IMG/VR virus record: IMGVR_UViG_3300017917_002644
Location: 1-64,000 of that record
Reading direction: 5' to 3' (one strand)
Length of the DNA: 64,000 bases
Source of the DNA: a virus
Part shown: in pieces, positions 413 through 28,549 of the stretch
How positions within the stretch are numbered: the stretch's first letter is position 1
Layout of the letters: the number at the start of each line of letters is the position of its first letter
Position numbers and translations under genes: made by a program
The notes under the pieces: model-generated
What the model saw: only the letters and a program-made list of their open reading frames with translations
Database searches by the model: none
What the model was told of the DNA's origin: nothing

Positions 413-1003
413 TTAGTTTAATTCAATTATAATTTCTCTCATTAAGTCTTGTGCTTTACAGAACTTACCACATTCTTCAGCAACTTTTTTCCATTGTTTA
501 GATTCGTTGATTGGTGCCATAAATGCTCCATGAGTTGATGGGTTTGATACAAAGTCCCAACCAACTAATTCAAAATCTTCCTGAACCATTACAGTACCAT
601 CTACCATCTCTTTTACTGAACCTAATCCTCTGGATGAAATACCTAAACGGATATTGTTTTTTAACAACTCTCTAAGAATGTTACCAGATGGAGTAGAAAG
701 GATTTCAACCGTTCCCATTACATCATCACCTTCCCACCAAATTTCTCTAATGTTGTGAGAAACGTTTTTAAGGTTGATAACCGGTGAATCCGGGTGGTCT
801 AATTCTCCCAATGCTCTTCTTTCTTTAATGAGTTGTTCGTATTTTTGGCACTCTCTCTCCAAAATATCTTTAGGGTATCTTCTATTATTTTGGTTTGGGG
901 CACCTGCTCTTTGTAGAACTCCCTTTACCAAATAAGTTCCATTAGATTCTTCTTGAAGTTTTGCTTCAAATAAGTGAGTTTCTATTAATAATCCTTTACT
1001 CAT
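413..1003 (-). CDS. gp21: Prohead core protease, T4 gp21-like
   Basis: This is the serine protease (196 residues) that matures the T4-type prohead by cutting scaffold, capsid and internal proteins after short L/I-x-E motifs. The visible signature is GELDHP (His70), then NIRLGISSRGLGSV with the nucleophile in GISSRG (Ser123 or Ser124), then VGWDFVSNPS (Asp150). The family uses a Ser-His-acid mechanism. Length is near that of T4 gp21. The ATG at 1003 overlaps the stop of the upstream frame (TAATG), indicating translational coupling. It acts in the assembling head; the L-N-E motifs in neighbouring head proteins are plausible substrates. Confidence 0.9.
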   Translation of the reverse strand: MSKGLLIETHLFEAKLQEESNGTYLVKGVLQRAGAPNQNNRRYPKDILERECQKYEQLIKERRALGELDHPDSPVINLKNVSHNIREIWWEGDDVMGTVEILSTPSGNILRELLKNNIRLGISSRGLGSVKEMVDGTVMVQEDFELVGWDFVSNPSTHGAFMAPINESKQWKKVAEECGKFCKAQDLMREIIIELN

Positions 1004-1425: not shown

Positions 1426-1727
1426 TTTTGAGCCTCGTTTTTACTTGCTCTTAATGCTGCTAAATCACTTGCCTCAATCTCACCATCTTTATCAACATCT
1501 ATTTTTTCTTGGTTTCCTGGTAGGTTTTCGTTATATCCTCTCAATCTACCTTCGGTTTTTGCTTTATATGCTTTATCAACTGCATTGAAAAATGCCTTTT
1601 TCTCATCATCACTCATAGAAGGTATAGATTTACCACTCTTATCCAACATAGTTTTGAATAATTGTTGGTAATCTTCTTCTTCTCTAACTACCTGTCTTAT
1701 AAGTTCTTTAAGTTGATTTACTTTCAT
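1416..1727 (-). CDS. Small head-module protein with EF-hand-like loop; frameshift donor
   Basis: This gene encodes 103 residues if terminated in the zero frame. It begins with an amphipathic, charged helix (MKVNQLKELIRQVVREEEDY), a start seen in several T4-type prohead proteins. Near the C-terminus, DVDKDGEIEASDLAALR matches the EF-hand or dockerin calcium loop pattern D-x-D-x-D-G-x-I-x-x-x-D-L. The product ends in KKK at the slippery A run. It lies where T4 carries the core genes 67 and 68, between portal and protease. Stop and start overlap the upstream gene by one base. A prohead core role is inferred from position. Confidence 0.75.
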   Translation of the reverse strand: MKVNQLKELIRQVVREEEDYQQLFKTMLDKSGKSIPSMSDDEKKAFFNAVDKAYKAKTEGRLRGYNENLPGNQEKIDVDKDGEIEASDLAALRASKNEAQKKK

Positions 1728-3593: not shown

Positions 3594-3612
3594 TTTGTGT
3601 AGTTTTGTTAGA

Positions 3613-3621
3613 TATAAATAT
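3613..3621 (-). promoter_or_regulatory. ATATTTATA box upstream of a head gene
   Basis: The coding strand carries ATATTTATA with 19 bases between it and the ATG at 3593. The same box recurs ahead of many virion genes in this window. It may be a core promoter element or an AU-rich leader. Chance occurrence is possible in DNA this AT-rich. Confidence 0.35.
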
Positions 3622-3638
3622 ATCTTTATATTACTTTA

Positions 3639-5384: not shown

Positions 5385-5406
5385 TTCTTATTTCTATATG
5401 TTTTAA

Positions 5407-5438
5407 CAAAGATACGAAAATTATTTGATTTTTCCAAA
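5407..5438 (-). promoter_or_regulatory. Bacteroidetes-type promoter ahead of portal gene
   Basis: On the minus strand a -33 element TTTG (5438-5435) is followed by exactly 20 bases and TATCTTTG (5414-5407), a perfect match to the -7 consensus TAnnTTTG. The spacer ends AAATAATTTTCG and is nearly identical to two other promoters in this window. The predicted start leaves a leader of roughly 15 to 20 bases before the portal ATG at 5384. Confidence 0.75.
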
Positions 5439-5465
5439 TAACTTACTCACTATCAATGAATTATA

Positions 5466-6515
5466 TTACCACTTTCTGCAAGACCAGTATCTTGCTTTCC
5501 ATCTTGGACCTGGATTATCACAATTGTGTCTTGCTCTGAAACTTCTTCTTCTATCTGGATTTGATTTTTTAATTTTAACACCTTTTTGTCCAAAATTTAC
5601 TTTAACAACATTACCTTTGTCGTTTTTAACATAAACTTTGAATTTTTTAACATCACCTGCCATTGGTTTTCCCAATTTCACTTTTCTACCCTGATACTCT
5701 GCTTCTAATAAACAAGGACAAGTTGCTTCGCTTAATTGTTTGTTGTATTCTTTCATAAAAATGATGAAATCTTTTACATCATCTTCGTTTTCTACATCGT
5801 ATTCTATTGGTTCAACATATCCGTATTCTACCTCATCATCTGCATCTCTCAAATTTGGATGATTTGGATATTCATCTTCTTCAGAAATTTGGTTTAATAG
5901 TTTTTCGTATTCTGATTTAGGTGCTGGGGTTCTTTTTTGTAATTGTTGAACAATTTCTTTCCATGCATCATCGTATCTTTTTTTATCAGTAGGTGGTAAT
6001 TGTCTTTTTAAGAAATATATGAAACTCATTATTTCCGATTTATCTTCTTTCCACCACTTAGACATATCTGGAAAGTTTTCATTTATATTTTCATTTACAG
6101 GAACACAATTTGGAACCATTTTATCTCCTTTTTCTTTCATTCCAACTTGTTTGTACCCATCCCAACAAGATTCACATAATCCGTTGGTATCTCCCTCATT
6201 ACAAGTTCTCCAACCACCACCCTTAGATTTGTAGTTTTTTGCTGCCCATCCGTTTGCGTATGCAGATGGATATACATCGAATTTTCTTTTAGCCGCTGCT
6301 TTAGAAGCAGACCATTTACCAGGGTCAGTTGGACAATTTTTTTCTAAGAATAAATTGATACGTTCTTCAATGTTGTTCAAAATTTTCATATTTTCGTTCT
6401 TTTTTCTACCTTGACAATGTGCTCTTTGTGAAAAACCTTTTGGATTGTTACAATTAATGGAGTTTTTATATTTTTGACTCCATTTTTCATTTATTGTATC
6501 AGATAGCTTTATCAT
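5466..6515 (-). CDS. Cys-rich head-module protein of two phage domain types
   Basis: This 349-residue protein is modular. Residues 1-45 contain GFSQRAHCQGRKK. Around residues 60-120 is a segment with KWSASKAAAKRKFDVYPSAY and paired cysteines (CNEGD...CESCWDGYK), possibly metal-binding. A variable acidic middle follows. The C-terminal 70 residues (GKPMAGDVKKFKVYVKND, then RRRSFRARHNCDNPG) form a very basic domain often seen alone or fused in marine T4-type phages. L/I-x-E motifs (INE, LSE-A, LLE-A) lie between the parts and could be protease sites. These segments resemble families filed under DUF names such as DUF5872 and DUF6321, an uncertain attribution. A role in binding packaged DNA is a guess. 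Confidence 0.75.
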   Translation of the reverse strand: MIKLSDTINEKWSQKYKNSINCNNPKGFSQRAHCQGRKKNENMKILNNIEERINLFLEKNCPTDPGKWSASKAAAKRKFDVYPSAYANGWAAKNYKSKGGGWRTCNEGDTNGLCESCWDGYKQVGMKEKGDKMVPNCVPVNENINENFPDMSKWWKEDKSEIMSFIYFLKRQLPPTDKKRYDDAWKEIVQQLQKRTPAPKSEYEKLLNQISEEDEYPNHPNLRDADDEVEYGYVEPIEYDVENEDDVKDFIIFMKEYNKQLSEATCPCLLEAEYQGRKVKLGKPMAGDVKKFKVYVKNDKGNVVKVNFGQKGVKIKKSNPDRRRSFRARHNCDNPGPRWKARYWSCRKW

Positions 6516-6814
6516 TACGCTCCTGTTTTTACAAATGTTGGTTTTTGTCCTTTTGATTTTTCTCCACCTTTTTTAGCATCTCCTGCTTTATTTTGTGCTG
6601 CTCTTTTTCTTTTTACAAATGCCGCTCTACCATCTTTTCCTAATTTTGCAGCTTTTGCGTTTGATAAACATGCTGCATAAGATGAACCTTTTTTAGAGTC
6701 TCCACACTTACCTACCTTTTCACCTTTGGAATTGTATCTATCCCAACCACCAGTTGGTCCACTACCGAACCACTTTCTAAGGTCTTCATCCAAAAGGTCA
6801 ATTAATCTTATCAT
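6515..6814 (-). CDS. Small basic Cys-containing head-module protein
   Basis: This 99-residue protein is strongly basic. It begins MIRLIDLLDEDLRKWFGSGP and continues GGWDRYNSKGEKVGKCGDSK and SYAACLSNAKAA, with two conserved-looking Cys. Its C-terminal half is Lys/Ala/Gly-rich. I chose the ATG at 6814 over 6865: the earlier one overlaps the terminase gene and adds an unlikely Tyr-rich leader, while an ATATTTATA box sits 19 bases before 6814. It ends where the next gene begins (one-base overlap). The sequence belongs with small phage proteins of unknown function; DNA binding in the head is possible. Confidence 0.75.
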   Translation of the reverse strand: MIRLIDLLDEDLRKWFGSGPTGGWDRYNSKGEKVGKCGDSKKGSSYAACLSNAKAAKLGKDGRAAFVKRKRAAQNKAGDAKKGGEKSKGQKPTFVKTGA

Positions 6815-6833
6815 TTGTAAATAATATCTATAA

Positions 6834-6842
6834 TATAAATAT
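6834..6842 (-). promoter_or_regulatory. ATATTTATA box upstream of the small basic head gene
   Basis: ATATTTATA occurs on the coding strand with 19 bases between it and the ATG at 6814. The spacing is the same as for the gene starting at 3593. Function inferred from recurrence only. Confidence 0.35.
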
Positions 6843-6849
6843 ACAATTT

Positions 6850-8457
6850 TTAACCAAGCAACCAAGTTAGATTTTCTTTTTCTCCTTTGCCCAAATCCAT
6901 CTCATATGGATTCTGACTCATATACCCAGTCGAAATCATTCCTTCGTATTTATTTATTTGAGATGCGTTCAACATACTCTTTGTTAAATCTATACCCTCT
7001 TGTCTTAAACGAAGTGCTGTATTTCTAACCCACAATCCAATTCCTAATGCCATCACCAAGTCATCATTATATCCCTTCATTGCTTCTGCTCTACCACCGT
7101 TCCAAACAAATGTAAATAATTCATCTATCAATCTTTGAGAACGAATGAGTATATCCTTATCGTTCATATAAGTATCTAATGTAGAAATAATTAGAGGACG
7201 GGTTTTTGATGTTGTTGAAAATCCTGCAACCATTTGTCTTTCTTCTCTGTAAAACTTATTGGTCATCTGTCTTTCAACATCAATATATTTTAGGTCATTA
7301 CTCATATAGAATAGGTTTTGGTATCCTCTATCTATTACCTGTTGAATACATGCCCAACCTACGTTTGAGTTTTCTACTACCAATAATGCATTGTTATATT
7401 CGGTTGCTAATGCTGTTAAGAAGTTTCCAAAATCTTTTGTATCAATTTTACCTCTATATTCTGCAACTTGCGAACTATCTTCTATATCAATAACTTGTGC
7501 AGTTGAATAATCGGCTCCATCTCCCCTCGCCACATCGGCTACAACCATATATTGTCTGTTGTAGTTTGGGTGTTCCCATACCCATAGGTTACTATCAAAT
7601 CCTCTCTTTTCAACCGGCTCCATTACATAAGTTTCTTTATACCATGTCAATAGTGCAGGGTCTATCACTGTATCACCGGAACCAACAAAGTCACAATCAC
7701 ATTCTTGTGCCGCACCTTTAATTCCCAAAATACGGGTCTGTTCATCTCTCCATGCCTGATTTCTTTCTGGATGAACTGTCCAATGTAGGTTGATACAATT
7801 GAAACCGTTTGTTCCACTTTCTCCCTCTACCCACATTTTGTGGAACCAGTTACCAATACCGTTTGGAGTTGATAATACAATTGCCGAACCACCTGTTGAT
7901 AGGGTTGATTGTGCCGATAACCAAATCTCATCAATATCTCTAATAAATGCCGCCTCATCCACAACCAATAAGGATAGTGCTTCAGAACGACCTGCATCTG
8001 GAGATGATGCGATTGCTTTTACTTGTGAACCATTCTTTAATTTAAGTGATAATTTGTTATCCTCTACCGATGATTGTCCACCATCTCTCAACCAAACAGG
8101 TAATAAATCGTGCATAACCCTTACTTTCTCTACCAAGTTTTTTGCAACCGTTACTTTAGTTGCAATAACCAATGCATTGAAATCCTGATTAAACAACATT
8201 TTCCACAGAATAAATCCTGCAGAAAGTGTAGATAAACCTAATTGTCGTGATTTTAGAATAATGTTAAAACGATTCTCTTTGAAATCCGTTAAACACTCCT
8301 CCTGAAAAGGATAAAGGTGAAAGGGTATTTTTCCTCTCACCGGATGTTGAATAACGCAGTATTTTTTCATAAAGTAAATGGGGTCTCCCGCACACTTACG
8401 ATATTCTTCTGCTATAATTTGTTTTAGGCTCTTTTGAGGTTGCCCTTGAACTGCCAT
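6850..8457 (-). CDS. gp17: Terminase large subunit, T4 gp17-like
   Basis: This is the DNA-packaging motor: an N-terminal ATPase that translocates DNA into the prohead and a C-terminal RNase H-fold nuclease that cuts it. Length (535) is somewhat shorter than T4 gp17. The Walker A-type loop is SRQLGLST (residues 70-77) and Walker B with catalytic Glu is LLVVDEAAF (163-171). The motif LSTPNG (195-200) follows. The nuclease acid cluster includes VVADVARGDGADYS (Asp308, Asp313) and VVENS (Glu362). The start overlaps the end of the upstream gene by one base. Confidence 0.96.
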   Translation of the reverse strand: MAVQGQPQKSLKQIIAEEYRKCAGDPIYFMKKYCVIQHPVRGKIPFHLYPFQEECLTDFKENRFNIILKSRQLGLSTLSAGFILWKMLFNQDFNALVIATKVTVAKNLVEKVRVMHDLLPVWLRDGGQSSVEDNKLSLKLKNGSQVKAIASSPDAGRSEALSLLVVDEAAFIRDIDEIWLSAQSTLSTGGSAIVLSTPNGIGNWFHKMWVEGESGTNGFNCINLHWTVHPERNQAWRDEQTRILGIKGAAQECDCDFVGSGDTVIDPALLTWYKETYVMEPVEKRGFDSNLWVWEHPNYNRQYMVVADVARGDGADYSTAQVIDIEDSSQVAEYRGKIDTKDFGNFLTALATEYNNALLVVENSNVGWACIQQVIDRGYQNLFYMSNDLKYIDVERQMTNKFYREERQMVAGFSTTSKTRPLIISTLDTYMNDKDILIRSQRLIDELFTFVWNGGRAEAMKGYNDDLVMALGIGLWVRNTALRLRQEGIDLTKSMLNASQINKYEGMISTGYMSQNPYEMDLGKGEKENLTWLLG

Positions 8458-9098
8458 TACTTTCCTAATTTAATTTTCCAATATGCACCCACACCAATAT
8501 AAGGAGTAAATGCACCGTTTGTACCATCAGTAGTTGTGTTTAATACGCCACCACCAATTTGATACAATTTATCTTTTTTGGTTTTTAAGATAAATCCACC
8601 ACCAATTGTACTAACTAAATCTTTTTTGTTTAAGTTAGAATTAAAACCAAAATATAATTGGTTTTTTGGTAATTCTTTTACAATAGTTGTTTCTTTGATA
8701 GTTCTTTGTTTTACACTCGCATTGAAAGTTCTACCTAAGATTTTGTTTTGTGTAATTGTATCTGTTACCGCAACTGTTCCTAATGAGTCAGGTAAAGTTA
8801 ATACATCTTTATACACATTTTTTGCATAGTAGTTTTGTAAAAGTGCTTGAGTATCAACAACTGCAGGGATTTGAACTTCTTTAATTGTTTCGTGGTAAAT
8901 ATCTTCACCTCTTTTTGTAACAACTTTTGTTTTAACCACATCTACTGTGTCAATAATTCTTTTAATCACTTCGTATTTTTTACCATCTACTTTGATGATT
9001 TCTCCTGTGATTTTTGATGCAATACCGAAATATTCTATTCCTACAAAGATTAATAATACTACGATTGCAATGTTTTTTACTGATAAATACTTTTTCAT
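8457..9098 (-). CDS. Membrane-anchored beta-rich protein, unknown
   Basis: This 213-residue protein has one N-terminal hydrophobic helix (residues 10-28, IAIVVLLIFVGIEYFGIA). A Val/Thr/Lys-rich periplasmic-type region follows, and then a C-terminal half rich in alternating hydrophobic residues (LYFGFNSNLNKKDL, GGGVLNTTTDG, YIGVGAYWKIKLGK) that resembles short outer-membrane beta-strands. No lipobox is visible. Similar anchored proteins occur in Bacteroidetes phages. Candidate roles are an envelope or spanin-like lysis function or superinfection exclusion, but nothing in the sequence decides between them. Confidence 0.7.
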   Translation of the reverse strand: MKKYLSVKNIAIVVLLIFVGIEYFGIASKITGEIIKVDGKKYEVIKRIIDTVDVVKTKVVTKRGEDIYHETIKEVQIPAVVDTQALLQNYYAKNVYKDVLTLPDSLGTVAVTDTITQNKILGRTFNASVKQRTIKETTIVKELPKNQLYFGFNSNLNKKDLVSTIGGGFILKTKKDKLYQIGGGVLNTTTDGTNGAFTPYIGVGAYWKIKLGK

Positions 9099-9103
9099 AA
9101 TTT

Positions 9104-9772
9104 TTACTTTTTAATAAGTTCTGGATGATTTAATTCAAGTAACTTTTCTTCTAATGCCGCTTTCCTTTCCAATAGGGCTTCTATTGCATCGTATGCACCA
9201 TCAATATCGTTTTTTAAATTTTGTTTTACTTCTTCTATATCTACTTCCCATGTCCAATTTTGTAAAGAACCATCTTCATTTACAATTTGGAATTGAGATG
9301 TTACACCTTCTAATGCTTCTTCAAATCTTTGTTTTAACTCCCTTACATATGCAAGTTTGTTTCTTGTTATTTTGTAATCTTCGTAATAAGGATATGTTCC
9401 ATCTGCTTTTAAGTTTGTTTCATACTTTGCTAAACAAGTTGCACAATATCCTGTTTTACGAATTAGTTTCTTATCCGCATTACTATATTGTATAGTTTCA
9501 CAATCCTCACCTGAACAATTGCTCATTTGGTCAAGAAATTTCCTAACCTCATCCATTTTGGTTACGGATATTTTGTATCCATCTTTTTGTTCCCATTGGT
9601 GACCATCTTTATCTGTCCAAATCTCACCAATCTCTCTATCTTTTTCTACCTCCCCATCATATCCATGCACTCTTTGAGTATTATCTTCTCTACCAAAAAC
9701 CGTATCAATTATCTTTTTACGGGTTGGGTGAATGTAATTGTTTTTTTCTTCGAAACTTTTTCTTTTTGCCAT
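9104..9772 (-). CDS. Zinc-ribbon-like conserved protein, unknown
   Basis: This 222-residue protein has an N-terminal segment IHPTRKKIIDTVFGR and a charged domain containing GEIWTDKDGHQWEQKDGYK. Two Cys pairs (NCSGEDC and YCATC, about residues 86-120) could bind one zinc. The C-terminal half is helical and probably coiled-coil (DAIEALLERKAALEEKLLEL). It lies between the terminase-side genes and the giant head-module protein. No small terminase subunit was otherwise recognised in this window; this gene or a neighbour could take that place, but the evidence is only positional. Confidence 0.7.
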   Translation of the reverse strand: MAKRKSFEEKNNYIHPTRKKIIDTVFGREDNTQRVHGYDGEVEKDREIGEIWTDKDGHQWEQKDGYKISVTKMDEVRKFLDQMSNCSGEDCETIQYSNADKKLIRKTGYCATCLAKYETNLKADGTYPYYEDYKITRNKLAYVRELKQRFEEALEGVTSQFQIVNEDGSLQNWTWEVDIEEVKQNLKNDIDGAYDAIEALLERKAALEEKLLELNHPELIKK

Positions 9773-9808: not shown

Positions 9809-12800
9809 TTAATAAAAAAGACCCAATATTTGATTTAGTGGTGCAAAGGTACCTGTAAGTTTATAAGTGTTTCCTTTATAAACAAATACAATACCTTCAT
9901 TTGGAACTATCCTATCTTTACCACCTAAACTATTTAATCTTTCTAATTCTTGTTTTAATTTTGCAATTAAAGATTTATCACCACTTTGCCTAACTCTTTC
10001 TGCGGTTGATTTTAATCTATCTTTCATTGAACGAATTGCAGCATTAGGATTTGCTGTAAGAACTGAACTCATAAAGGATAATACATCTGCTCCAACTCCT
10101 AAAAATATTTCCTCAAAAGGTTTAATATTTGTTTTTTGTTGTTTCATTACATCAACTTTATCGGTTTCAATTGCCCACTTTTTAATATCCTCATCACTTA
10201 TACTTGCTAATCTAAAAGATTTCTCACCAAATGCCCATCTTCTTACCAATGCTTCTTTTGTAAGTTTATCTACTACCTTTGGAGATTTTTTATCTACAAA
10301 ATCTTCCCACCATTTTTGATGATATAATGCAACTGTATCTCCATCACTCAAACGAAATTCATTTTGTAATTTTGATAATTTAGATAAGTATTTGCTCTGT
10401 TTAGAACCCAATTCTTCATTCTTTGGTAATTCGGTTACAGGAGGTCCTTGTATTGTGTATTTAGATTGAACATCTGCATTTACCTGCTTTATCATTCCTG
10501 CTAATACTCTTGCTGCTGATTGGTCAGAACCTACTGCATTTCCTTTTTCATCATAACAAGTTGTATTGTGAAATACTAATAGTGCTTGTCCATAAGGAAT
10601 AACGTTTACAGATGTTGGCCAGATAACCTCCAAATTCATAAAACATTGTCCTTCGTTGAATATTTTTTGTCTTTGTTTTTCTGAAAGTGATTGGATTGCT
10701 GCCGATAGGTCTTTCATTGCAAAATTGTATGCATCGGTTAAACCACCTCTACCCCCAAACTTTGATGCAACACCTTCAATTCCCATTGCGTTTGCTCCCG
10801 CATTTGCAAGGTGTCCTTTGTTTCTTGCCGCAATCAATCTACCATTTTTCCAACTGATTGCCAATGCCTGTCCATCTGTTTTTTCTCTTGTCAATTCCAA
10901 CTCACCATTTAATGCTCCTGTGATAATGTTTTTCAGGTCACCAAATGTTAAATCCATATCATCAAATGGGTGTGCCATATGTCCATATGCACCACCTTCG
11001 TTTAATATTCCTTCTTTAAGACTTCTTTTTTGTAGAACTAATTTGTTTATGTCTGAAAATAAATCAGCAATTTCTTTATCCAATTTCTTTTCATCCGCAC
11101 TCATTGGTGATTCTATATCCACATTGGAGTATAGTTTTTTCTTTTTTGCCACCAATACATCTACCCTTTTAAGTAAATCGTTTTTTACTTTATCTAAATC
11201 TTTTATAATTTCTTCTTTAGATGTTTCGTTTAAGTTTTTATTTGCAGGTTGATTATCATATCCACAAACGTGACAGATATACATCGCGTTTCCACCTTCT
11301 GCTTTATACCATTCATGTCCACAATTATCACAAATTATCATCCCACCCTCATCTGCTGAATTGGATTTTACTTCTGCTTCGTTAAATGCAGATGGAACTT
11401 TTATTTTTGTCCAACCTCCCCAACGAAATATTCTTGATGGTATTGGTAAGGTAGAACCAATTGGTAATTTATGTTGATATTTTTTATCTATACCAACTAC
11501 TTTGGTAACATAGTTTCTGTTTTTATTATCTGCACCAATCAATTCAACTTCAACCTCAACTTCGTTTCCACCGATTTTCATTTTACCCTTAAAGAAACCT
11601 TTGTTAATTTCTTCAATTTTTCTAAATGTAGTTGCTTGTTTTCCGTTGATTGTTGGCATCCCATGCTGGTCTTTACCAATATCTTTTACGGTAGTTTTTT
11701 TGTTCTTAAACTTACCCATAAGGATTTCATCACCCCTATCTATATCCAAAGTAATATCCTCTTTGTTTATTTCAATTGCTGCTAACTGTCTTTTTGCAGA
11801 TGCTAACGATGAATGTGTTCCTAATCTCTTACCACCATTTTTTGGATAAACTACATAATCATCACCAACTTTTTTAATAGTTTCTGTGTAGATTTGTTTG
11901 TTTAATTTTCCGTAATCTCTTAAAAGAATACCTGCTAATGCATTTGCCTGATTTTCAACAGGTGAACCAGTCTTACCCGCTTCTTCCTCATTTCTAATTA
12001 ACTTCATCTCATCCTGCTTTCTGTGAACCATTTCGTGTGCAATAGTTCTTAGGATATCTGCCGTTAATCTTCCACTCGTTACTACAAAAATCTCTTTAGT
12101 TAGTGGAGAATATCCACCCAACGATGGTTGTTCTCTATCTAACTCATTATCCTTTAATAAAACTACTTTTGGTTTTTCGTTTAGTTTTAATCTTTTTGTA
12201 GCGTATTCTATAAAGTGTTGTATATTTTGTGCTTTTGACGGAGAAAGGTTTTCATTTAGAGAACCAAATAGAGAACTCAATTCTCCTTTATCTTTTTCTT
12301 TTTTGTAATCAACAACTGCTTTTTTCAATTGTTCATCACTCAACTCATAGGTTTCCATTTTTTCGGCAACCTTTTTAAGAACATTATTTACAAAATCAGT
12401 TCCACCCGCAATCTCCAATAATCCCATAGATGCAGTTGCCAAACCTGCCCCACCAATCGCAGCCTGTTTAGCTCCCAATCCTAATGTTTCTAATGTTGCG
12501 TGTTTTGCTATATCTTTTGCAAGGTGTGCACTGAACCCACCAACTCCATGTGTAAATACACCTGCTGCACCACTACCTGCTGCCGCAAATGTTCCACCCA
12601 AACTCGCACCCGCATTTACTGCTTTAATAGCAGCTGCTCCCGCACCACCCAATGCCATAGAACCCATTATTAATGCAGTATCAACAGCAAAATGTTTTAA
12701 ATGATGTATTTGTTCTTTTCTTTTTTCTTCTGAATATTCCCACTTACCCGTTTCTTTGTTTTTAGTAGAACCGATTTTTTGTCCGTTTGCTAATGCCCAA

Positions 12801-14293
12801 ACCGCTTCACCGGAACCTTTAACCATTTCCTTTTTATTATCTGCCCACTGTTTAATACCTTTACCGAATTTTTCTAATCCGGATTTGATATTATCCACCA
12901 TTCCTTTTCTTGCTTTTGAACCTGGTTTGTGTTCTCCGTTTGATATAAATTCTCTATCTTCTTTATCTAATGTTTTTACAACATTCATCAAACTTTCTTT
13001 TGCCTTTTCTTTTTCTTTTGCATGTTCTGCTGATGATTTTAACTCCGCACCTTTTAGGGTTTGTGGTTGGGGTTGTCCTTCTCCACCTTTATCACTACCA
13101 CCATCTTTTGGAGTTTTATCAACTTTACCTTGTTGAGTTTGTCCTTTTTGCACAGGTTGTCCCTTTTGTGGTGGTTCAGGTTTCTTTTCAGGTGCAGGTT
13201 TTATTGGTTGTGCAACATTTTGTGTAAGTTTCTTTGCCTGAATATGTGCCTCGTGGTCAGCAGGTAATCTCAATGCACCTCTTACAGTGATTTTCTTTTT
13301 TTGACCATCTTTTGCAGTATATGTAAGTTCCTTATCGTAAATAGGATTCTGTGGTGCATTTTCCGGTTGTTCGTTTAAGTAATTTGCTATAAAATGATTA
13401 AAATCATTTTCCGTAATTGCATTTGCTATAATTTCCGCAATTGGGTCATACGGTGCCATATTACCATCAAATGCATCTTCTTCTTCTGCAGGGTGTTCTA
13501 TTTGATGACGGGTTGGGTGTGGTTCTGGTCTCAATTTTGATGGTGGGTTTGTATTTACACTTTCGTTTGCCGAACCAGTTGGTGCACCATTGATATATCC
13601 ACCAGGTAGAACTAACCCAGTTCCAATTCCACCAGGAAATCCTTCTGTGTTTAAGTCCTCATCATCAATTACATTTATCTTATCAAAACTTCCTGCCATT
13701 CCTGTTGGAAAACCTGTTCCGGCTTCGTTTAATTTATTTTTAATCATTTGGTAAATTTCATCATCAAACTTTGGATATATTTTCTTAAAGAAATCTTTCG
13801 CTTTCTTTTCATCCGCACCCTTAAAGTTTGTTCTAACATCTGTTCCACTTATTGGGTTAGGTTCTGCAGGAACTGCGTAAACATATCCAATCTCATCATA
13901 TCCATACCCAGCTTTACCTTTATATGGTTTAAAGTATTTACCGGTCAATCTACTCGCATCTTTTTCACCAACGGCTGCTACATATTGTGTAGTTTTACCA
14001 TCGTATTTATCCAATATTTCTTTTGGTGCGTATGGATTTTTGATTTGAACAAATTTATCAGCAGGAACTCCAAATATTTTTGTTGCTATTTTTTTCTTTT
14101 CTTCGAAATTAAATGGTGATTTTCCACCATCGGTAACATTGGATGTTCCAATATAAACATTATCTCTACCAAATTTGGAAACCAATTTTTGATATGAAAT
14201 AAAATGCCCCTTATGAAAAGGTTGAAAACGACCTGAATATACTACAATCGTTTTTTTAACTTCCGGCTTATCTACTTCTAATTTTAATTTCAT
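9809..14293 (-). CDS. Giant multidomain head-module protein: nucleotidyltransferase, zincin, zinc ribbon, ligase
   Basis: The protein has 1494 residues in one frame. Residues 14-180 are a HIGH-superfamily nucleotidyltransferase (YSGRFQPFHKGH, then ISGTDVR at 149-154), like NMN adenylyltransferases. Residues 360-430 are a Pro/Gln/Lys-rich linker. Residues 535-635 are Gly/Ala-rich and hydrophobic. Residues 690-800 are a zincin (HEMVH at 753-757, possible third ligand in VENQANALAG). A GKRLGTHSSLASAKRQLAAI repeat and a beta-rich domain follow. Residues 988-1010 are a zinc ribbon (CDNC...CHVC). Residues 1100-1494 look like a covalent ligase with KTDG (Lys1138), EGIVFVY (1466-1472) and KLTG. L/F-N-E tripeptides fall at domain borders, suggesting processing by gp21. 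It fits the idea of an injected polyvalent protein. Confidence 0.85.
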   Translation of the reverse strand: MKLKLEVDKPEVKKTIVVYSGRFQPFHKGHFISYQKLVSKFGRDNVYIGTSNVTDGGKSPFNFEEKKKIATKIFGVPADKFVQIKNPYAPKEILDKYDGKTTQYVAAVGEKDASRLTGKYFKPYKGKAGYGYDEIGYVYAVPAEPNPISGTDVRTNFKGADEKKAKDFFKKIYPKFDDEIYQMIKNKLNEAGTGFPTGMAGSFDKINVIDDEDLNTEGFPGGIGTGLVLPGGYINGAPTGSANESVNTNPPSKLRPEPHPTRHQIEHPAEEEDAFDGNMAPYDPIAEIIANAITENDFNHFIANYLNEQPENAPQNPIYDKELTYTAKDGQKKKITVRGALRLPADHEAHIQAKKLTQNVAQPIKPAPEKKPEPPQKGQPVQKGQTQQGKVDKTPKDGGSDKGGEGQPQPQTLKGAELKSSAEHAKEKEKAKESLMNVVKTLDKEDREFISNGEHKPGSKARKGMVDNIKSGLEKFGKGIKQWADNKKEMVKGSGEAVWALANGQKIGSTKNKETGKWEYSEEKRKEQIHHLKHFAVDTALIMGSMALGGAGAAAIKAVNAGASLGGTFAAAGSGAAGVFTHGVGGFSAHLAKDIAKHATLETLGLGAKQAAIGGAGLATASMGLLEIAGGTDFVNNVLKKVAEKMETYELSDEQLKKAVVDYKKEKDKGELSSLFGSLNENLSPSKAQNIQHFIEYATKRLKLNEKPKVVLLKDNELDREQPSLGGYSPLTKEIFVVTSGRLTADILRTIAHEMVHRKQDEMKLIRNEEEAGKTGSPVENQANALAGILLRDYGKLNKQIYTETIKKVGDDYVVYPKNGGKRLGTHSSLASAKRQLAAIEINKEDITLDIDRGDEILMGKFKNKKTTVKDIGKDQHGMPTINGKQATTFRKIEEINKGFFKGKMKIGGNEVEVEVELIGADNKNRNYVTKVVGIDKKYQHKLPIGSTLPIPSRIFRWGGWTKIKVPSAFNEAEVKSNSADEGGMIICDNCGHEWYKAEGGNAMYICHVCGYDNQPANKNLNETSKEEIIKDLDKVKNDLLKRVDVLVAKKKKLYSNVDIESPMSADEKKLDKEIADLFSDINKLVLQKRSLKEGILNEGGAYGHMAHPFDDMDLTFGDLKNIITGALNGELELTREKTDGQALAISWKNGRLIAARNKGHLANAGANAMGIEGVASKFGGRGGLTDAYNFAMKDLSAAIQSLSEKQRQKIFNEGQCFMNLEVIWPTSVNVIPYGQALLVFHNTTCYDEKGNAVGSDQSAARVLAGMIKQVNADVQSKYTIQGPPVTELPKNEELGSKQSKYLSKLSKLQNEFRLSDGDTVALYHQKWWEDFVDKKSPKVVDKLTKEALVRRWAFGEKSFRLASISDEDIKKWAIETDKVDVMKQQKTNIKPFEEIFLGVGADVLSFMSSVLTANPNAAIRSMKDRLKSTAERVRQSGDKSLIAKLKQELERLNSLGGKDRIVPNEGIVFVYKGNTYKLTGTFAPLNQILGLFY

Positions 14294-14319: not shown

Positions 14320-14445
14320 TTAGAAACTTTTATAGATAAATGGGTCTCTTTTTTTAAGTTCTTCTAATTTTTTCTTAAATCTTTTTTTTCTTTTATGTTC
14401 TTCCCAAATTTTTACAAAGAAAGAAATTACTGGCCAATTTTTCAT
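14320..14445 (-). CDS. Small basic protein, 41 residues
   Basis: A short frame starts at the ATG at 14445-14443 and ends with TAA at 14322-14320. It overlaps the stop of the upstream HAD gene in an ATGA arrangement, which supports translational coupling. The product begins MKNWPVISFFVKIWEE and continues as a Lys/Arg-rich helix, ending KRDPFIYKSF. It fills the gap between the glycan cluster and the giant head gene. Function unknown; its size makes it a candidate only. Confidence 0.5.
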   Translation of the reverse strand: MKNWPVISFFVKIWEEHKRKKRFKKKLEELKKRDPFIYKSF

Positions 14446-14807
14446 AATTGTTTTAGTTTAATTTTTGCTTCTTCTAATGAAACTGCTTTATCATCTATAA
14501 GTAAATCGTAATGTAACTTACCCATAAATAATCCATGATGTTTTACTCCCCACTTTTCTAAACATTCTAATGTTAAAGGATATAATTCATCATATATCCT
14601 ATTTACATCTCCGTTTAGAGTTTTCATACCTCTTGCTGTATAAATATAAATAGTATGTCCTTTATCATACATTTTATTACACAAATCTATCATTTCTAAA
14701 ATAGGTTGACATTGGTGATACTTATCAATTCCCAAATCTTCTATTCCTTCTGGTCTAAAACATAGGGTATCATCTAAATCAAAAACTAATATTTTTTTAT
14801 CACTCAT
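14442..14807 (-). CDS. HAD-superfamily phosphatase, capsule-type
   Basis: This 121-residue minimal HAD fold carries the nucleophile motif DLDDTLC (Asp10, Asp12), TARG (motif II) and DLLIDDKA (motif IV acids). It lacks a large cap domain. Proteins of this size are common in capsule and LPS loci, where they dephosphorylate sugar phosphates. It overlaps the GatZ-like gene upstream by four bases, so it is probably in the same transcript. I infer that it removes a phosphate from an intermediate of the sugar pathway encoded next to it. Confidence 0.82.
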   Translation of the reverse strand: MSDKKILVFDLDDTLCFRPEGIEDLGIDKYHQCQPILEMIDLCNKMYDKGHTIYIYTARGMKTLNGDVNRIYDELYPLTLECLEKWGVKHHGLFMGKLHYDLLIDDKAVSLEEAKIKLKQL

Positions 14808-15751
14808 TGTGGTAAACTTTTTAATTTATTTTGTATTTTTTCTTTTATAATATCATCAATTTGTGGCAATTCATACATATCGTAACAGTAATGTCCACAA
14901 ACCTGTATTAGTTTTTTCTTATCTTTTTTATCAAAATCTTTACTTACCCACTTTTCCCATTTTTTAGATTTTAAACATATTTTGTAAAATTCATCAATCT
15001 GTGTATCACTCATATGTTCTAAATAAGTCAGTGTTTGTATTTGTGCAATTTCTGGTCCAATATTAATACTATCTACACCATTATTAAAACGAATTAGATA
15101 TTCTTCGTTAGTTAAGTAATCTCCGTTATGTTCTTTGGTTTTTTTTCCAAATTGTTTACAAACCGAAACCATTGATTTTAATCTTTCTAAATCAAAATTG
15201 CCAGTATTTTTCATATTTACCAAATCCAACCCTACTCCGGATTGTATTACTACATATTCTATATTATCAAATATTTGAGATGATAATTGTTTTTGTAAGA
15301 ACTGTAATATTTCAAATACTTCCAAAACTTCAAATCTAACAATTGCTTCTTCCGTTAATATTTCGTATTTTACGTTAGGGTTTAAATGATATAATAAAGT
15401 AATTGAATCGTGTGTTTGAGTTACTCCCAATACTTTTGTATCAATTATTGCTTTCCAAGGGTCAATGTGAATTATATCAAAATATTGTGTATCATTTTTG
15501 TAAGAAATATGTCCATCATCTTCGGTTTTTCCTTGATTAGGACCAGCATGGTCTCTTTCTAAGATAATTTTTTTGTTTTTCTTTTTAACGTATTTGTAAA
15601 AATTTTTAGTATCCCACCCATTGACATATCCACCATCGTAATCTATTTGTCTTCGTGTTGGTAGTAATCCAAAATTATCAGATTTTAATTCAATAACAGC
15701 ATCCACTATCTGTTTAGACATTGGACAAATATAGTATTTAGGCATCTTCAT
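14804..15751 (-). CDS. GatZ/KbaZ-like TIM-barrel aldolase protein
   Basis: This 315-residue protein resembles the GatZ/KbaZ family (tagatose-bisphosphate aldolase, so-called non-catalytic subunit). The N-terminal blocks LLPTRRQIDYDGGYVNGW and KKIILERDHAGPNQG correspond to the family pattern in which a Gln-rich strand is followed by GGYTG and GGDHLGPN. His and Asp in ERDHAGP would be active-site residues. No GatY-type catalytic partner is seen in the window. It overlaps the AroE-like gene by 14 bases. An aldol step that builds or splits a phosphosugar is inferred; the substrate is unknown. Confidence 0.68.
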   Translation of the reverse strand: MKMPKYYICPMSKQIVDAVIELKSDNFGLLPTRRQIDYDGGYVNGWDTKNFYKYVKKKNKKIILERDHAGPNQGKTEDDGHISYKNDTQYFDIIHIDPWKAIIDTKVLGVTQTHDSITLLYHLNPNVKYEILTEEAIVRFEVLEVFEILQFLQKQLSSQIFDNIEYVVIQSGVGLDLVNMKNTGNFDLERLKSMVSVCKQFGKKTKEHNGDYLTNEEYLIRFNNGVDSINIGPEIAQIQTLTYLEHMSDTQIDEFYKICLKSKKWEKWVSKDFDKKDKKKLIQVCGHYCYDMYELPQIDDIIKEKIQNKLKSLPQ

Positions 15752-16379
15752 AATCTATTTCTGTGTATAATTTGAACTGATGTATTGCTTGAAACTTAGA
15801 AACCATTCTACCATATTCCGTATGAGGTCTTAAATCAATTATTTTATTATTTTTGGATAATATCTCTATTGGAGTTGCATTTATAAATATTTCATTGTTT
15901 TTATCATCTATATTTGTAATATTTGTTCTATCAAAAATTGAGTATGATAACCCCATTCGTTTACATCCAAACTGAATTGCTTTACTAAATCCGCCGTTTC
16001 CAATAATGTTTACAGTATCGGTTATACTAATATACGAAAAAAAATCCATAATACCAACATAATCAGTATTATATCCAACTAATTTTTTATTTTTTATTAA
16101 AACGGTGTTTACTGCTCCAATTTCTTTTGCGGCAGTATCCAATTCATCTAATAAAGGTAATACCGAAATTTTATGTGGCATACTTAATGCAAATCCACTA
16201 AACCCCAAATGTTTAACTGATTGAATTGTTTGATGGATATTATCCGAATAGAATGATTTGTATATTGCATTTATACCGTATCTTTGAAATGCGTTATTGA
16301 AAAATATACATCCATTGTTTCCAGGATTTTCCGAAAAAGAACCGTATAATTTTGTATCTTTATTTATTTGTAAATTCAT
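15738..16379 (-). CDS. Shikimate dehydrogenase-like protein (AroE family)
   Basis: At 213 residues this is shorter than typical AroE (about 270). The core is clear: GFSGFALSMPHKISVLPLLD is the substrate domain with the catalytic Lys of the S-x-P-x-K motif (MPHK). IGAVNTVLIKNKKLVGYNTD carries the conserved Asn and the Asn-Thr-Asp. IGNGGFSKAI is a nucleotide-binding loop close to GxGGxxxA. The C-terminal part is abbreviated. Placed among capsule-type enzymes, it may act on a cyclitol or keto-sugar rather than on shikimate. It overlaps both neighbours (20 and 14 bases), as if translationally coupled. Confidence 0.8.
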   Translation of the reverse strand: MNLQINKDTKLYGSFSENPGNNGCIFFNNAFQRYGINAIYKSFYSDNIHQTIQSVKHLGFSGFALSMPHKISVLPLLDELDTAAKEIGAVNTVLIKNKKLVGYNTDYVGIMDFFSYISITDTVNIIGNGGFSKAIQFGCKRMGLSYSIFDRTNITNIDDKNNEIFINATPIEILSKNNKIIDLRPHTEYGRMVSKFQAIHQFKLYTEIDYEDA

Positions 16380-18273
16380 TTAACATTTCTGTTGATTTGA
16401 ACCATAACATTTTTGAAAATTTCTCATCATGCAATGGTGACATATTTAAGAATATTAATGCGGTTATTAGTTTAACTTTATCCAAATCGTATCCTTTTTC
16501 TACAATCCAATTTTCATAATAACTTTTAAACAATGTAAGGTTTTCTGAAATAGGGTATGTGTAATTTACAGAATAACTACCTTCTATAAAAGAAATGTTA
16601 TTTTCATCTTTCATTAAATCATAAGGTATTAGACACCCACCATACAGTTTAGCTAAATCATAATACACATCTCCACCCTCCGTATATCCACCAAATGACT
16701 CCCTCCAATCAATATATGTAAACTGTTTTATTTTATCGTTATATATTATATTATCAAATTGTAAATCACCATGAAACAATTCATAAAAAGGATTTTCATT
16801 GAATTTTGAATAATCTACTTTAGACAATAATTCTTTTATAGATGGATATTCTTTTCCTCTTATATTATGACCATTTTCATAATAATCTTTTCCATTTTTA
16901 TTAATAAATAATTCCAATCTTTCATTGGTTTTATCAATATAAAACTTTTTAATATGCTCTAATGAATTATTTTTTACAGTTGATAGGTTGTTTGATAGAT
17001 TGGATAAAAATTGTTTATATACATCCAAATTATCAATTGAATACAATGTATCACCATCACTCCAATTGTAATAAATAAAATCTTCAGTATTACCAAAGTT
17101 TGATGGAATTTGTTTTTTTAATATATTTGCTCTTTTTACTCTATTTTCTAATACAGTTTTATTAGGAACAAATTTTAAAAAATTATTATTTTCTTTATAA
17201 GTTATTTCACCATTGTATTTTTGCAGTGATAATGGTTTATCTTTAAAATATTTTTTTGCGTTTTTTAAATCATCAAAATTACCGGTATCTAACCAATTTA
17301 ATTTTTTAGATTTAAAAGTTGGATAATTTGCTGGATTAATAAACGCAGATACAACTTCTCCGTTTTGTATATTTGTTTCTAATTCTTTCCAAAAAATATC
17401 ATAATCCCAAACACCCGCTAAACCAATAAATGCCAAATTGAACCCATTTACATCTTTATTTCTGTATTCTAATATGTTATCGTTATTGTCAGTTTTTAGA
17501 GTTGAATATTTTTCAGGATAAGATGTTTCCGTTACACCTAACCAATTACCATCCAAGTGTGGGATTTTTGATGTTATTAAACAATCGCAGGTGGTTAAAT
17601 AAAACGGTCGTTGTAAATGTTCTTTACACTTTAAAGTTGAATAACCTGGACCAGAACCTTCACCATCTATGTTATCAACATCTACGAAAGTAAATTTATG
17701 ATTAGGATAGGAAATTTTACAATAATCTTTTAGGGATTGTCCTTTATATCCAGTTGCAATTATAAACTCATAATCCGTTGGGAATTTTTCAATAATATGT
17801 GAAATTATTGCACGATTGTTTATTGGTAATAGGGCTTTGTTTATTTGGGTGGTTAATGGTTCTAATCTACTTCCAAATCCTGCCGCTAATATTAATACTG
17901 CGGGAGTTTTATGTTCACCATCAATCTTACCATCGTTTCTTCCAAACTCATCATCTATTCTAAATACATCATCTACTTCGGGTGTAGAAACTTCTTGTAA
18001 GATAATATCTGTTAGAGCGATTACTCTGTGTTTTTTAGGAGGTGTTACATTAAAGTATTCACCGGCTTTCATAATTCTTTTTTCAACTACTCCTTCATCA
18101 TTTTCTAACCAAACTTCTGCTTCACCTGAAATTATGTAATTTGTTTCTTTTTTAAATTGGTGATACTGATAAGATGTTTTATAACCTGCATTAATGTATA
18201 TTCGTTTATAGCAATATTTATCATTTAATTCTAACCACTCTTCTTTCCCCCAAGGCTTTATAACTGTTTTCAT
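16360..18273 (-). CDS. Cupin, sugar nucleotidyltransferase and kinase fusion
   Basis: Three domains occupy 637 residues. Residues 1-105 are a cupin like that at the end of type II mannose-6-phosphate isomerases (IKPWGKEEWL, YQYHQFKKET, GEAEVWLEN). Residues 124-345 are a Rossmann-type nucleotidyltransferase (LILAAGFGSRLEPLT, Lys146; TTCDCL as the metal site). Residues 360-637 are an aminoglycoside/choline kinase-like domain (HGDLQFDN at 501-508, IDWRE at 521-525). Together these could phosphorylate a sugar or alcohol, activate it as an NDP derivative and isomerise or bind it, in one polypeptide. The start overlaps the SGNH gene by four bases. Confidence 0.85.
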   Translation of the reverse strand: MKTVIKPWGKEEWLELNDKYCYKRIYINAGYKTSYQYHQFKKETNYIISGEAEVWLENDEGVVEKRIMKAGEYFNVTPPKKHRVIALTDIILQEVSTPEVDDVFRIDDEFGRNDGKIDGEHKTPAVLILAAGFGSRLEPLTTQINKALLPINNRAIISHIIEKFPTDYEFIIATGYKGQSLKDYCKISYPNHKFTFVDVDNIDGEGSGPGYSTLKCKEHLQRPFYLTTCDCLITSKIPHLDGNWLGVTETSYPEKYSTLKTDNNDNILEYRNKDVNGFNLAFIGLAGVWDYDIFWKELETNIQNGEVVSAFINPANYPTFKSKKLNWLDTGNFDDLKNAKKYFKDKPLSLQKYNGEITYKENNNFLKFVPNKTVLENRVKRANILKKQIPSNFGNTEDFIYYNWSDGDTLYSIDNLDVYKQFLSNLSNNLSTVKNNSLEHIKKFYIDKTNERLELFINKNGKDYYENGHNIRGKEYPSIKELLSKVDYSKFNENPFYELFHGDLQFDNIIYNDKIKQFTYIDWRESFGGYTEGGDVYYDLAKLYGGCLIPYDLMKDENNISFIEGSYSVNYTYPISENLTLFKSYYENWIVEKGYDLDKVKLITALIFLNMSPLHDEKFSKMLWFKSTEMLNEFTNK

Positions 18274-19061
18274 ATTGTTTTTGTATTATTAATTTTTTCA
18301 ATAATTGTTTCAAATACTAATTTATGTCCAATTTCGGAAGTATGGTATGACCCCATTTCATCTGGATATTTTTTTGATAATTCTCCCCAATCTACCCAAA
18401 TTAAATTTTCTCTTGGTATATAACGTTTAAATTCTGTATCCCACGTTAAAATATAATGTTTAATTCCTGCATTTTTTAATAAAGTATGTGCAAGTGTTAT
18501 CATTCCAATATCATATTGTCTTTGTATGCTTTCATCAAATATTTCTAAAAAATAATTTTTTAATAATCGCATACGTTCCGGTCTTTCATTTTTAAATTTA
18601 GTAAAATAATTTAAATCTAAACCTTTATCTAATACATTATCCACATAATCTACTATTCCTAAATAATTTTCAGTAAACATTTTTCCATTATATGATTTAT
18701 CGGATTGTAATGGATTCCTCAATATCATTGGATATGTATCTCTACCGTATGGTGGATATTGGTGATAATTTACATCCGTATTATTTAATTCCCAATGTTT
18801 ACTATGATGTTCATTTTCTGGAAACCATTCTGTTCTATTGTATGAAGTTATTGCAACACATACAAAATCTATATCCTTAATATTTTGAACCGCATATTTT
18901 GCTTGTAAAAATATTGAAAAATTTGAACTTGAACCTTTAGCAAGATTTATTAGATTTTTATCAAAATGATTTGCCAATAATGAACCATATGGTTCGGTTT
19001 TAAGATTGTAACATCCAATCCCAACACTAAATGAATCACCACAAACAACTATGTTTTTCAT
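18270..19061 (-). CDS. SGNH-type hydrolase or acyltransferase
   Basis: This 263-residue protein carries the SGNH blocks: CGDSFSVGIGC (Ser nucleophile in GDSF, residues 8-11), LAKGSSSNFS (Gly and Asn blocks) and, near the C-terminus, GSYHTSEIGHK with the catalytic His. No signal peptide is seen, so it acts in the cytoplasm or on an intracellular intermediate. In glycan clusters such enzymes add or remove acetyl groups on sugars. It overlaps genes on both sides by four bases. Substrate unknown. Confidence 0.75.
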   Translation of the reverse strand: MKNIVVCGDSFSVGIGCYNLKTEPYGSLLANHFDKNLINLAKGSSSNFSIFLQAKYAVQNIKDIDFVCVAITSYNRTEWFPENEHHSKHWELNNTDVNYHQYPPYGRDTYPMILRNPLQSDKSYNGKMFTENYLGIVDYVDNVLDKGLDLNYFTKFKNERPERMRLLKNYFLEIFDESIQRQYDIGMITLAHTLLKNAGIKHYILTWDTEFKRYIPRENLIWVDWGELSKKYPDEMGSYHTSEIGHKLVFETIIEKINNTKTI

Positions 19062-19771
19062 AAACCTTTATTATAATTCCACCAATCTTCACTTATTTTA
19101 TGAAGTTCTTCAAACGATTTATCTAAATTATTTCTATGAGAACTTCTCATTATAGAATACTTTAAAACTTCATTTGGAATTTTCTCTACATAAATATCGT
19201 TTAAAACAAAATGTCTGGCTAAATGGTAATGTATATCTTTATAACTCAAATCACACATTGGAAATGTTAATATTGCATTTTTAACAGTTTCAAATTTTCC
19301 TAAAAACAACATGTCCTGTATAAACAATAATCCAGGTGGTGGAGAAAAACATATAGGTCCTAATGCATACAAATATTCGGTAGTTATATTTTCAATAAAT
19401 TTGTTTAGTGTATTTTCTTTGTTAAAAAATATATCAGGTCTGATTAATATAACATTTTCGTATTGAAAATCAGTAGTGTTTACCATATTAAATAGTTTTC
19501 TCCAATGATATACCATTTTATTACTATTAAAACTTATATATGGATTATCTTTTTCTATGCTTATTATAGCGTTTGGAAGTATTTTTAATATGCGTTCTTT
19601 AGTTACTGTTTCTATAATATCAATGTTTAACGCAGAATTTCTTTCATATGTTGTATCCCAAGTGCTAAAAAACACATCAGTTTCATCGTTATTTAAAAAA
19701 TTCCAAGATTTGTGAGAATTATCAAATTCTCTGTACATCCCACCTATTAGTACTGCTAATTTCTTTTTCAT
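19058..19771 (-). CDS. Divergent member of the SG-Q-x-R-T glycosyltransferase-like family
   Basis: This 237-residue protein is a distant relative of the six genes between 21.2 and 26.4 kb. The start LAVLIGGMYREFD replaces the usual SGQ-R-T block. TDVFFSTWDT matches the family's FFIHTWD, and VILIRPDIFF keeps the R-x-D block. DMLFLGKFETVKNA aligns with the later block (DDVFFSNS-type). The conserved acids suggest a metal-dependent GT-A-like transferase, but the family is not one I can name with certainty. Four-base overlaps link it to the genes before and after. Confidence 0.6.
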   Translation of the reverse strand: MKKKLAVLIGGMYREFDNSHKSWNFLNNDETDVFFSTWDTTYERNSALNIDIIETVTKERILKILPNAIISIEKDNPYISFNSNKMVYHWRKLFNMVNTTDFQYENVILIRPDIFFNKENTLNKFIENITTEYLYALGPICFSPPPGLLFIQDMLFLGKFETVKNAILTFPMCDLSYKDIHYHLARHFVLNDIYVEKIPNEVLKYSIMRSSHRNNLDKSFEELHKISEDWWNYNKGL

Positions 19772-22121: not shown

Positions 22122-22122
22122 A

Positions 22123-26380: not shown

Positions 26381-26381
26381 G

Positions 26382-28546: not shown

Positions 28547-28549
28547 AAC

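Follow-up and report, generated by a model that had tools for sequence, protein, structure and literature searches.

How one phage protein comes to hold several unrelated enzymes, and whether it acts as a single chain or as several proteins, is the question raised by a long open reading frame in the head module of a T4-like phage. The window comprised 64,000 nucleotides of the IMG/VR virus record IMGVR_UViG_3300017917_002644. A preliminary description had located the frame at 9809-14293; it reads from 14293 to 9809 on the minus strand, an assignment added here, and codes for 1494 aa. The head-module setting was confirmed, with a gp20-like portal (PF07230, 5e-70), a terminase and a gp21-like protease encoded in the same gene run. 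IMG/VR contained 439 relatives, hundreds of them from freshwater and marine metagenomes. Among relatives, with lengths of 639-2026 aa, unrelated effector domains were shuffled within one chain. The isolated Microcystis phage Mel-JY01 carried a short version of 639 aa, likewise near the terminase, with L/I-x-E sites close to its N-terminus (LLSE↓LRLHIFSE↓DD; arrows mark predicted cuts) and ahead of its ligase (IIAE↓GG). The protein is likely a head-packaged polyprotein of T4-like phages that would be cut by the prohead protease. The preliminary description had proposed this, and the proposal gained support from a motif-specific enrichment at module junctions, from the presence of a gp21-like protease and of gp23 sites in carrier genomes and from leaders on separately encoded modules, while its site list and domain assignments needed correction.

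The domain types named earlier, an HxGH nucleotidyltransferase, a Gly/Ala-rich helical part, an HExxH zincin, a CxxC zinc ribbon and a KxDG ligase, were all recovered; the zincin piece and the type of ligase were revised. All features are on the minus strand. The first predicted mature fragment, aa 1-190 (13724..14293), is an NMN-adenylyltransferase-like nucleotidyltransferase with the motif GRFQPFHKGH (PF01467, 6e-5; phrog_395, 7e-11) that matched NMNAT in the PDB at 2.4e-5. The MKLKLE at its N-terminus may act as a short leader. It is followed by a disordered linker, aa 191-308 (13370..13723, pLDDT ~30), ending in the leader-like helix NDFNHFIANYLNE. Sequence and structure model indicated a basic, partly disordered piece at aa 309-681 (12251..13369), with Gly/Ala-rich hydrophobic helices at ~530-630. 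The zincin piece, aa 682-972 (11378..12250), began with the zincin itself (HEMVH...E; H753, E754 and H757 invariant) and additionally held small beta domains, one matching phrog_3684 (5.5e-10) and one with the motif GDxxLMGKFKNK. The CxxC...CxxC zinc ribbon occupied aa 973-1023 (11225..11377) and was assigned by sequence; the same module stands behind MTKLKDILNE↓K in a separate L074/L075 protein. Comparison with relatives defined a helical spacer, aa 1024-1099 (10997..11224), with the tandem sites SLKE1094↓ and ILNE1099↓; in one relative, L004, the same spacer lay between ESVNE sites.

The C-terminal module, aa 1100-1494 (9809..10996), was identified from alignments as a KxDG nucleotidyltransferase, RNA-ligase-like, with a helical insert (AF2 pLDDT 89). 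Residues E38, K39, D41, G42, E123, E367, G368 and K379 of the ligase were invariant in 22 sequences, giving the signature of RNA ligases of the nucleotidyltransferase superfamily: KxDG, motif III Glu, EGxVF and motif V Lys. A sequence search against the PDB found no ligase, whereas fold comparison did. With VIA-align, the top rows were all RNA or tRNA ligases, with Z up to 8.9 over ~190 residues, and DNA ligases ranked lower; the best Foldseek E-value was 2e-3. The ligase named earlier was thus retained as ligase-like, resembling RNA ligases more than DNA ligases by fold.

T4 gp21 cuts after L/I-x-E. The six tripeptides listed previously were all present with the next residue as given. The best supported is ILNE1099↓GGAYGHM directly before the ligase (10997..10999), with L/I-x-E in 23/23 aligned relatives. 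It is followed in strength by KLNE190↓A (13724..13726), with L/I-x-E within ~8 residues in 23/23 relatives and pLDDT <50 just downstream, and by SLNE681↓N (12251..12253) in the low-confidence segment 669-683, with Glu in 23/23 and L/I-x-E in 15/23 relatives, P3 otherwise being V or M. At YLNE308↓Q (13370..13372), E308 was kept in 23/23 relatives and P3 was L/I in 10 and mostly F in the others, so that about half depart from the rule. NLNE1023↓T (11225..11227) is the last of the predicted sites; it lies in the low-confidence segment 952-1026, where only three or four relatives align, two of them with Glu. AFNE972↓A (11378..11380) is doubtful as a cut site: with Phe at P3 it fails L/I-x-E, and F/Y/M-x-E was only 1.4-fold enriched at junctions. 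Many conserved junction sites among the relatives deviated from the T4 rule by having V, F, Y or M at P3, and the N-terminal site of this copy, K-L-E, also departs from it. An upstream start giving this copy a longer leader was not evident, the ATG at 14293 being preceded by a short AT-rich sequence. In the predicted structure, every listed site lay in or beside a low-pLDDT linker. Two further x-N-E sites absent from the earlier list, E706 in the zincin fold and E1214 in the ligase fold, were rejected as cut sites, being conserved yet inside folds; E706 also lay away from low-pLDDT linkers.

Within the 1494-aa protein, L/F-N-E occurred eight times against 0.70 expected, a count reached by 0/1000 same-composition shuffles. 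Plain L/I-x-E was not enriched (12 vs 14.9 in shuffles), nor was L/I-x-E followed by A, G or S (3 vs 3.5). The signal in the single protein is therefore Asn at P2 together with site position, not L/I-x-E as such, and for this reason the statistics were shifted to junctions across relatives. The sample consisted of 61 non-redundant relatives from freshwater, marine and jumbo phages. At homology breaks between swapped modules, L/I-x-E was 5.4-fold enriched (95% CI 4.7-6.3), and 3.8-fold (3.1-4.5) when the ligase junction and the N-termini were omitted; these intervals are approximate because the relatives are not independent. L/I-N-E reached 9.6-fold. The control motifs L/I-x-D (0.82), L/I-x-K (1.10) and A/G/S/T-x-E (0.87) were not enriched at module junctions. 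L/I stood at P3 of the junction Glu in 38% of cases vs 11% elsewhere, and P3 was where the L/I preference was strongest. Tail-fibre relatives as a negative control yielded just seven loci, too few alone, so all other ORFs were pooled; junctions of these other mosaic phage ORFs showed no enrichment of L/I-x-E (1.12-fold, 0.78-1.53). An alignment-end artefact was rejected, as L/I-x-D and L/I-x-K gave no peak and the other mosaic ORFs gave none either. The placement of L/I-x-E at module borders thus held as a motif-specific property, and the motif preference read from these sequences is that known for gp21.

Four modules, the nucleotidyltransferase, zincin, ligase and zinc ribbon, were also found as separate proteins behind a predicted cleavable leader. 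Separate ligases began with MALLSYTQFLNE↓K, MKFLKSYEEFLNE↓N or MKSLIQYISE↓T, nucleotidyltransferases with MKNFHQFITE↓A or MKYVNSFLEFLAE↓S and the zincin with MNYKQFLRE↓S. The first leader of each of these three groups resembles MKTYQEFIAE↓A, the capsid-targeting sequence of T4 IPII/IPIII, and the IPIII-type pattern was found in only 2/1435 other ORFs. Among complete relatives, 44/49 carried L/I-x-E in the N-terminal 26 aa, against a background of 17%. Leaders were not universal on the nucleotidyltransferase fold, since in neither Stenotrophomonas phage Moby nor Xanthomonas phage X1 does the protein begin with one.

The proposed processing enzyme is the gp21-like prohead protease encoded at 413..1003 on the minus strand (phrog_207, 3e-56). 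Such a protease was detected in 15/18 carrier records, including all carriers with a gp23 gene. The maturation position of gp23 was L/I-x-E↓A/S in 12/12 gp23 proteins from 12 relatives, for example QLLDE↓A, QLISE↓A and QLIDE↓S, the same rule as FLTE↓A of T4 gp23. In the part of this phage's own record that the analysis covered, no gp23 was seen.

These data fit a scheme in which the chain would be built into the prohead core, probably via a short N-terminal leader and leader-like internal segments. The gp21-like protease would then cut after L/I-x-E at the linkers and free the nucleotidyltransferase, hydrophobic helical piece, zincin, zinc ribbon and RNA-ligase-like enzyme inside the capsid. 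Injected with the DNA, the freed enzymes would most likely replenish nucleotide or NAD pools and mend RNA that host defences have cut. Somewhat less firmly, we favour the generalisation that T4-like phages package a constant set of enzymes for the start of infection (NAD/RNA repair, a protease, binding of nucleic acid) within a single polyprotein, with the capsid maturation protease doubling as the releasing enzyme. This would be a widespread strategy not yet described, with modules passing back and forth between genes of their own, each with one capsid-targeting leader, and a shared chain with many internal sites. If so, the job of the prohead protease extends from trimming and scaffold clearance to release of cargo enzymes, L/I-x-E at linkers offers a simple rule for listing head-carried proteins of uncultured phages, and the chain is a naturally occurring design for loading several proteins at a fixed ratio. 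Given Mel-JY01 as an isolate with the short version and hundreds of metagenomic relatives, a direct test is feasible.

A packaged polyvalent protein might instead stay in one piece, its L/I-x-E linkers being leader remnants from fused cargo genes that are no longer cut. Separate cargo genes with leaders exist and gene fusion would therefore leave such scars; a passage of PMC5512222 also describes the packaged N4 virion RNA polymerase as unprocessed. Scars should decay, yet every aligned relative keeps the P1 Glu and P3 Leu/Ile of the E1099 site, despite variation at P2 and exchange of the modules upstream. Before the ligase, L/I-x-E was found in all distinct freshwater contexts and in 45/50 marine or jumbo contexts, with varied and in many cases unrelated upstream sequences. 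The remaining 5/50 distant contexts read LLLM↓GG or LLLC↓GG, so LLLE may be partly kept by the fold. Moreover, gp21 would be active where the chain is packed, and the motif known for it spans just three residues; an uncut chain appears rather unlikely.

Self-processing was also considered, as zincin-like metallopeptidase cleavage is proposed for polyvalent proteins generally in part of PMC5512222 and the chain has an HExxH zincin. L/I-x-E junctions are retained in relatives without a zincin, namely those of the L020 type and Mel-JY01, and the motif agrees with that of gp21 and with the gp23 site in the same phages, making cleavage by the zincin very improbable. Hardly more credible is a multi-enzyme that is produced in the infected cell, remains soluble and never enters the head, with the sites as flexible linkers. 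Virion detections are confined to remote nucleotidyltransferase homologues, but the polyprotein gene sits with the portal, terminase and protease genes, separate module proteins bear capsid-targeting-like leaders, and linkers alone leave L/I-x-E without L/I-x-D unexplained.

The packaged polyprotein proposed here has counterparts in known systems. The cyanophage cytidyltransferase T4-GC190 (phrog_395) and its neighbour T4-GC71 (phrog_455) likewise pair a related nucleotidyltransferase with an adjoining KxDG protein, but P-HM2 and Syn1 encode the two as small genes of their own; profile comparison of T4-GC71 with the ligase gave no significant homology. Distant nucleotidyltransferases were among the proteins found in virions of cyanophages (PMC3037559, PMC10665884), where the S-CREM2 authors allow for carry-over; they are remote, with ~25% identity to the Mel-JY01 enzyme (E 4e-3). 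Polyvalent proteins (Iyer et al. 2017, PMC5512222) share the giant chain, unrelated effector domains including a zincin, late-gene setting and domain shuffling, but in the part of that account considered here processing was ascribed to zincin domains or absent, and prohead-protease sites between modules were not found. T4 IPI-III and Alt, whose capsid-targeting sequences are cut by gp21, share a gp21-type protease and head-gene context with the polyprotein, and a short N-terminal leader ending in L/I-x-E with most of its complete relatives, this copy having K-L-E; leaders of the module homologues are of the kind MxxYxxFIxE. In T4 a separate gene encodes each cargo protein and processing is terminal, in contrast to fused enzymes with internal sites. 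Several prohead-protease cuts per chain also occur in the T4 core proteins gp22, gp67 and gp68 and in head propeptides of phiKZ and SPN3US (PMC9026906, PMC10052503). In those cases cleavage dismantles scaffold or strips off propeptides, whereas here it would free folded enzymes.

The polyprotein ORF of 1494 aa (14293..9809, minus strand) was located on a 74.6-kb virus record. Also encoded in this gene run were a portal resembling gp20, a terminase of the T4 type and a head protease resembling gp21, confirming the head-module setting of the preliminary description. The six cut sites proposed there for the prohead protease (E190, E308, E681, E972, E1023 and E1099) were all found. [LF]NE occurred eight times versus 0.7 expected, but L/I-x-E as a class was not enriched within this single chain, so that one sequence alone was insufficient to decide.

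Polyprotein relatives were obtained from an IMG/VR scan (439, of which 80 were kept), from searches with the ligase of Microcystis phage Mel-JY01 (304 more matches, 80 kept) and with a jumbo-phage ligase (5 further relatives), and from bacterial and archaeal genome bins (7 further). Complete non-redundant relatives comprised 639-2026 aa. They were mosaics of a C-terminal KxDG ligase, usually an N-terminal HxGH nucleotidyltransferase and variable modules in the middle. Module junctions were defined as BLAST homology breaks among 61 non-redundant polyproteins, with unaligned sequence on both sides. L/I-x-E was 5.4-fold denser at junctions than elsewhere (bootstrap 95% CI 4.7-6.3) and L/I-N-E 9.6-fold; after exclusion of residues 1-40 and the ligase junction, values were 3.8-fold (3.1-4.5) and 7.6-fold. 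No junction rise was observed for L/I-x-D (0.82), L/I-x-K (1.10), L/I-x-Q (1.14) or [AGST]-x-E (0.87), and 57 other mosaic ORFs on the same contigs showed only 1.12-fold junction L/I-x-E (0.78-1.53). L/I occupied P3 of 38% of junction Glu residues versus 11% elsewhere; the rise was smaller at P4 and absent at P2. Other P3 residues were less enriched (V 2.1-fold, F/Y/M 1.4-fold). The junctions thus define a specificity of L/I at P3 with E at P1, which is that published for T4 gp21 (PMC9026906).

A gp21-like protease was present in 15 of 18 carrier records and the major capsid protein gp23 in 13, all 13 of which also held the protease. Where either was missing, the record was a fragment or distant. 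Each of the 12 gp23 proteins read carried L/I-x-E↓A or ↓S (arrow, predicted cut) at the position of the T4 maturation cut, the same type as FLTE↓A of T4 gp23.

Just upstream of the ligase motif GGxxGHM, [LI]xE was present in all distinct freshwater contexts, with P2 unconstrained (N, L, S, T, M, A, Q) and upstream sequences often unrelated. Marine and jumbo phages showed it in 45/50 contexts; the other five read LLLM or LLLC, so part of this strand's conservation may have other reasons. The AF2 ligase model was disordered in residues 1-5.

In the window copy, E1099 ranked first (23/23 relatives), followed by E190 (site nearby in 23/23), E681 and E308 (Glu in 23/23 each; L/I at P3 in 15/23 and 10/23) and E1023, with few relatives to compare. 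E972, with Phe at P3, ranked last and is a doubtful predicted site. An AF2 model of residues 1-1110, built from 30 sequences, had low overall confidence (54.7). Segments with pLDDT <50 contained E308, E681, E972, E1023 and E1099, with E190 at the edge of one, which is support rather than proof because such segments and their close surroundings hold about half of all residues. The extra tripeptide at E706 was located within the zincin fold.

Modules encoded separately carried leaders of their own. In jumbo phages L096 and L097, ligase and nucleotidyltransferase were separate genes, starting with MALLSYTQFLNE↓K (ligase, both) and MKYVNSFLEFLAE↓S (L097 nucleotidyltransferase), and additional ORFs around them had similar leader-type starts. 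Other separate ligases began with MKFLKSYEEFLNE↓N (L093) and MKSLIQYISE↓T (L092). Isolated cyanophages encoded a zincin starting MNYKQFLRE↓S (B23 gp332) and a nucleotidyltransferase starting MKNFHQFITE↓A (S-SRM01), and another head-region protein had MTKLKDILNE↓K followed by a zinc ribbon. T4 IPII/IPIII start with MKTYQEFIAE↓A; in IPIII, residues 4 and 7 are important in targeting, residues 8 and 10 in processing (PMC9026906), positions with which the leader pattern aromatic-x-x-aromatic-[LI]-x-E agrees. Among ORFs of the other contigs, 2/1435 had this pattern. Most fused relatives had a short leader, MNLNE↓VDKP or MNLINE↓VDKP, comparable to MELITE↓ of T4 Alt, or MNKLTEWLVKPFLTE↓A-type or MGELLNFLVESILLE↓A-type starts. 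L/I-x-E lay within the first 26 residues of 44/49 complete relatives (background 17%); the window copy (MKLKLE) was among the five without it. Leaders that target the capsid, cutting by gp21 and polyvalent proteins are all established. A packaged chain of folded enzymes freed by the capsid protease, with modules elsewhere targeted separately, was not found in the portion of the open-access literature searched; with coverage limited to open access, an earlier report elsewhere is possible.

Leader-type starts were also observed in other ORFs. Two neighbouring minus-strand head-region ORFs (window 5466-6515 and 6515-6865; MIKLSDTINE↓K..., QLSE↓ATCPCLLE↓AEYQG) look like a second, shorter polyprotein. 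Their homologues in L074 and L075 were fused in one chain after MTKLKDILNE↓ and a zinc ribbon. On L092, a 410-kb contig binned as Firmicutes, a run of about 14 small ORFs (1438-9565; MKSINQYISE↓S, MKSIREYINE↓A, MKDIKQYITE↓G and similar) adjoined gp21-like and gp23-like genes and resembles a battery of head-targeted proteins. In L096 and L097 (3776-13205), MKHIKTFEGFLNE↓A-type leaders were common to many ORFs, including small function-unassigned proteins and a kinase-like protein (phrog_5268), all candidate injected proteins.

The N-terminal domain matched NMN adenylyltransferases most closely. In structure, the ligase model was best matched by RNA ligases (Z 8.9 for the Naegleria ligase, 8.8 for T4 Rnl1, about 8 for Rnl2 and Trl1), with DNA ligases at about 6-7. 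Among relatives, L087 had an extra poly(A)-polymerase/CCA-type head domain (PF01743, 1.5e-29) and L004 a weak RegB-like match under its cut-off. Together, these matches and extra modules suggest RNA repair and NAD/nucleotide supply at infection start as the likeliest cargo theme. A remote nucleotidyltransferase of this kind, T4-GC190, was detected in cyanophage virions (PMC3037559), as was another, S-CREM2 ORF154, whose authors caution about carry-over (PMC10665884). The cyanophage core protein T4-GC71 (phrog_455; L220:2796-3992, L214:4781-6001) adjoins T4-GC190, one PHROG profile covering both. It has KWDG and EGYV motifs and is possibly an unrecognised ligase partner.

A long minus-strand ORF run (window 14442-34165) separates the polyprotein gene from the tail genes. 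It includes matches to the phosphoheptose isomerase and cysteine dioxygenase (cupin) families and resembles an island of sugar or surface-glycan genes. In two relatives (L015:10200-11440 and L016), the ligase domain was interrupted exactly in the active site by a split-intein-like pair, with the N-intein at EK^C... and a C-intein of 35 residues ending VHN^TDGQ. The two ligase halves had between them a distinct ORF of 244 aa that may encode a homing endonuclease.
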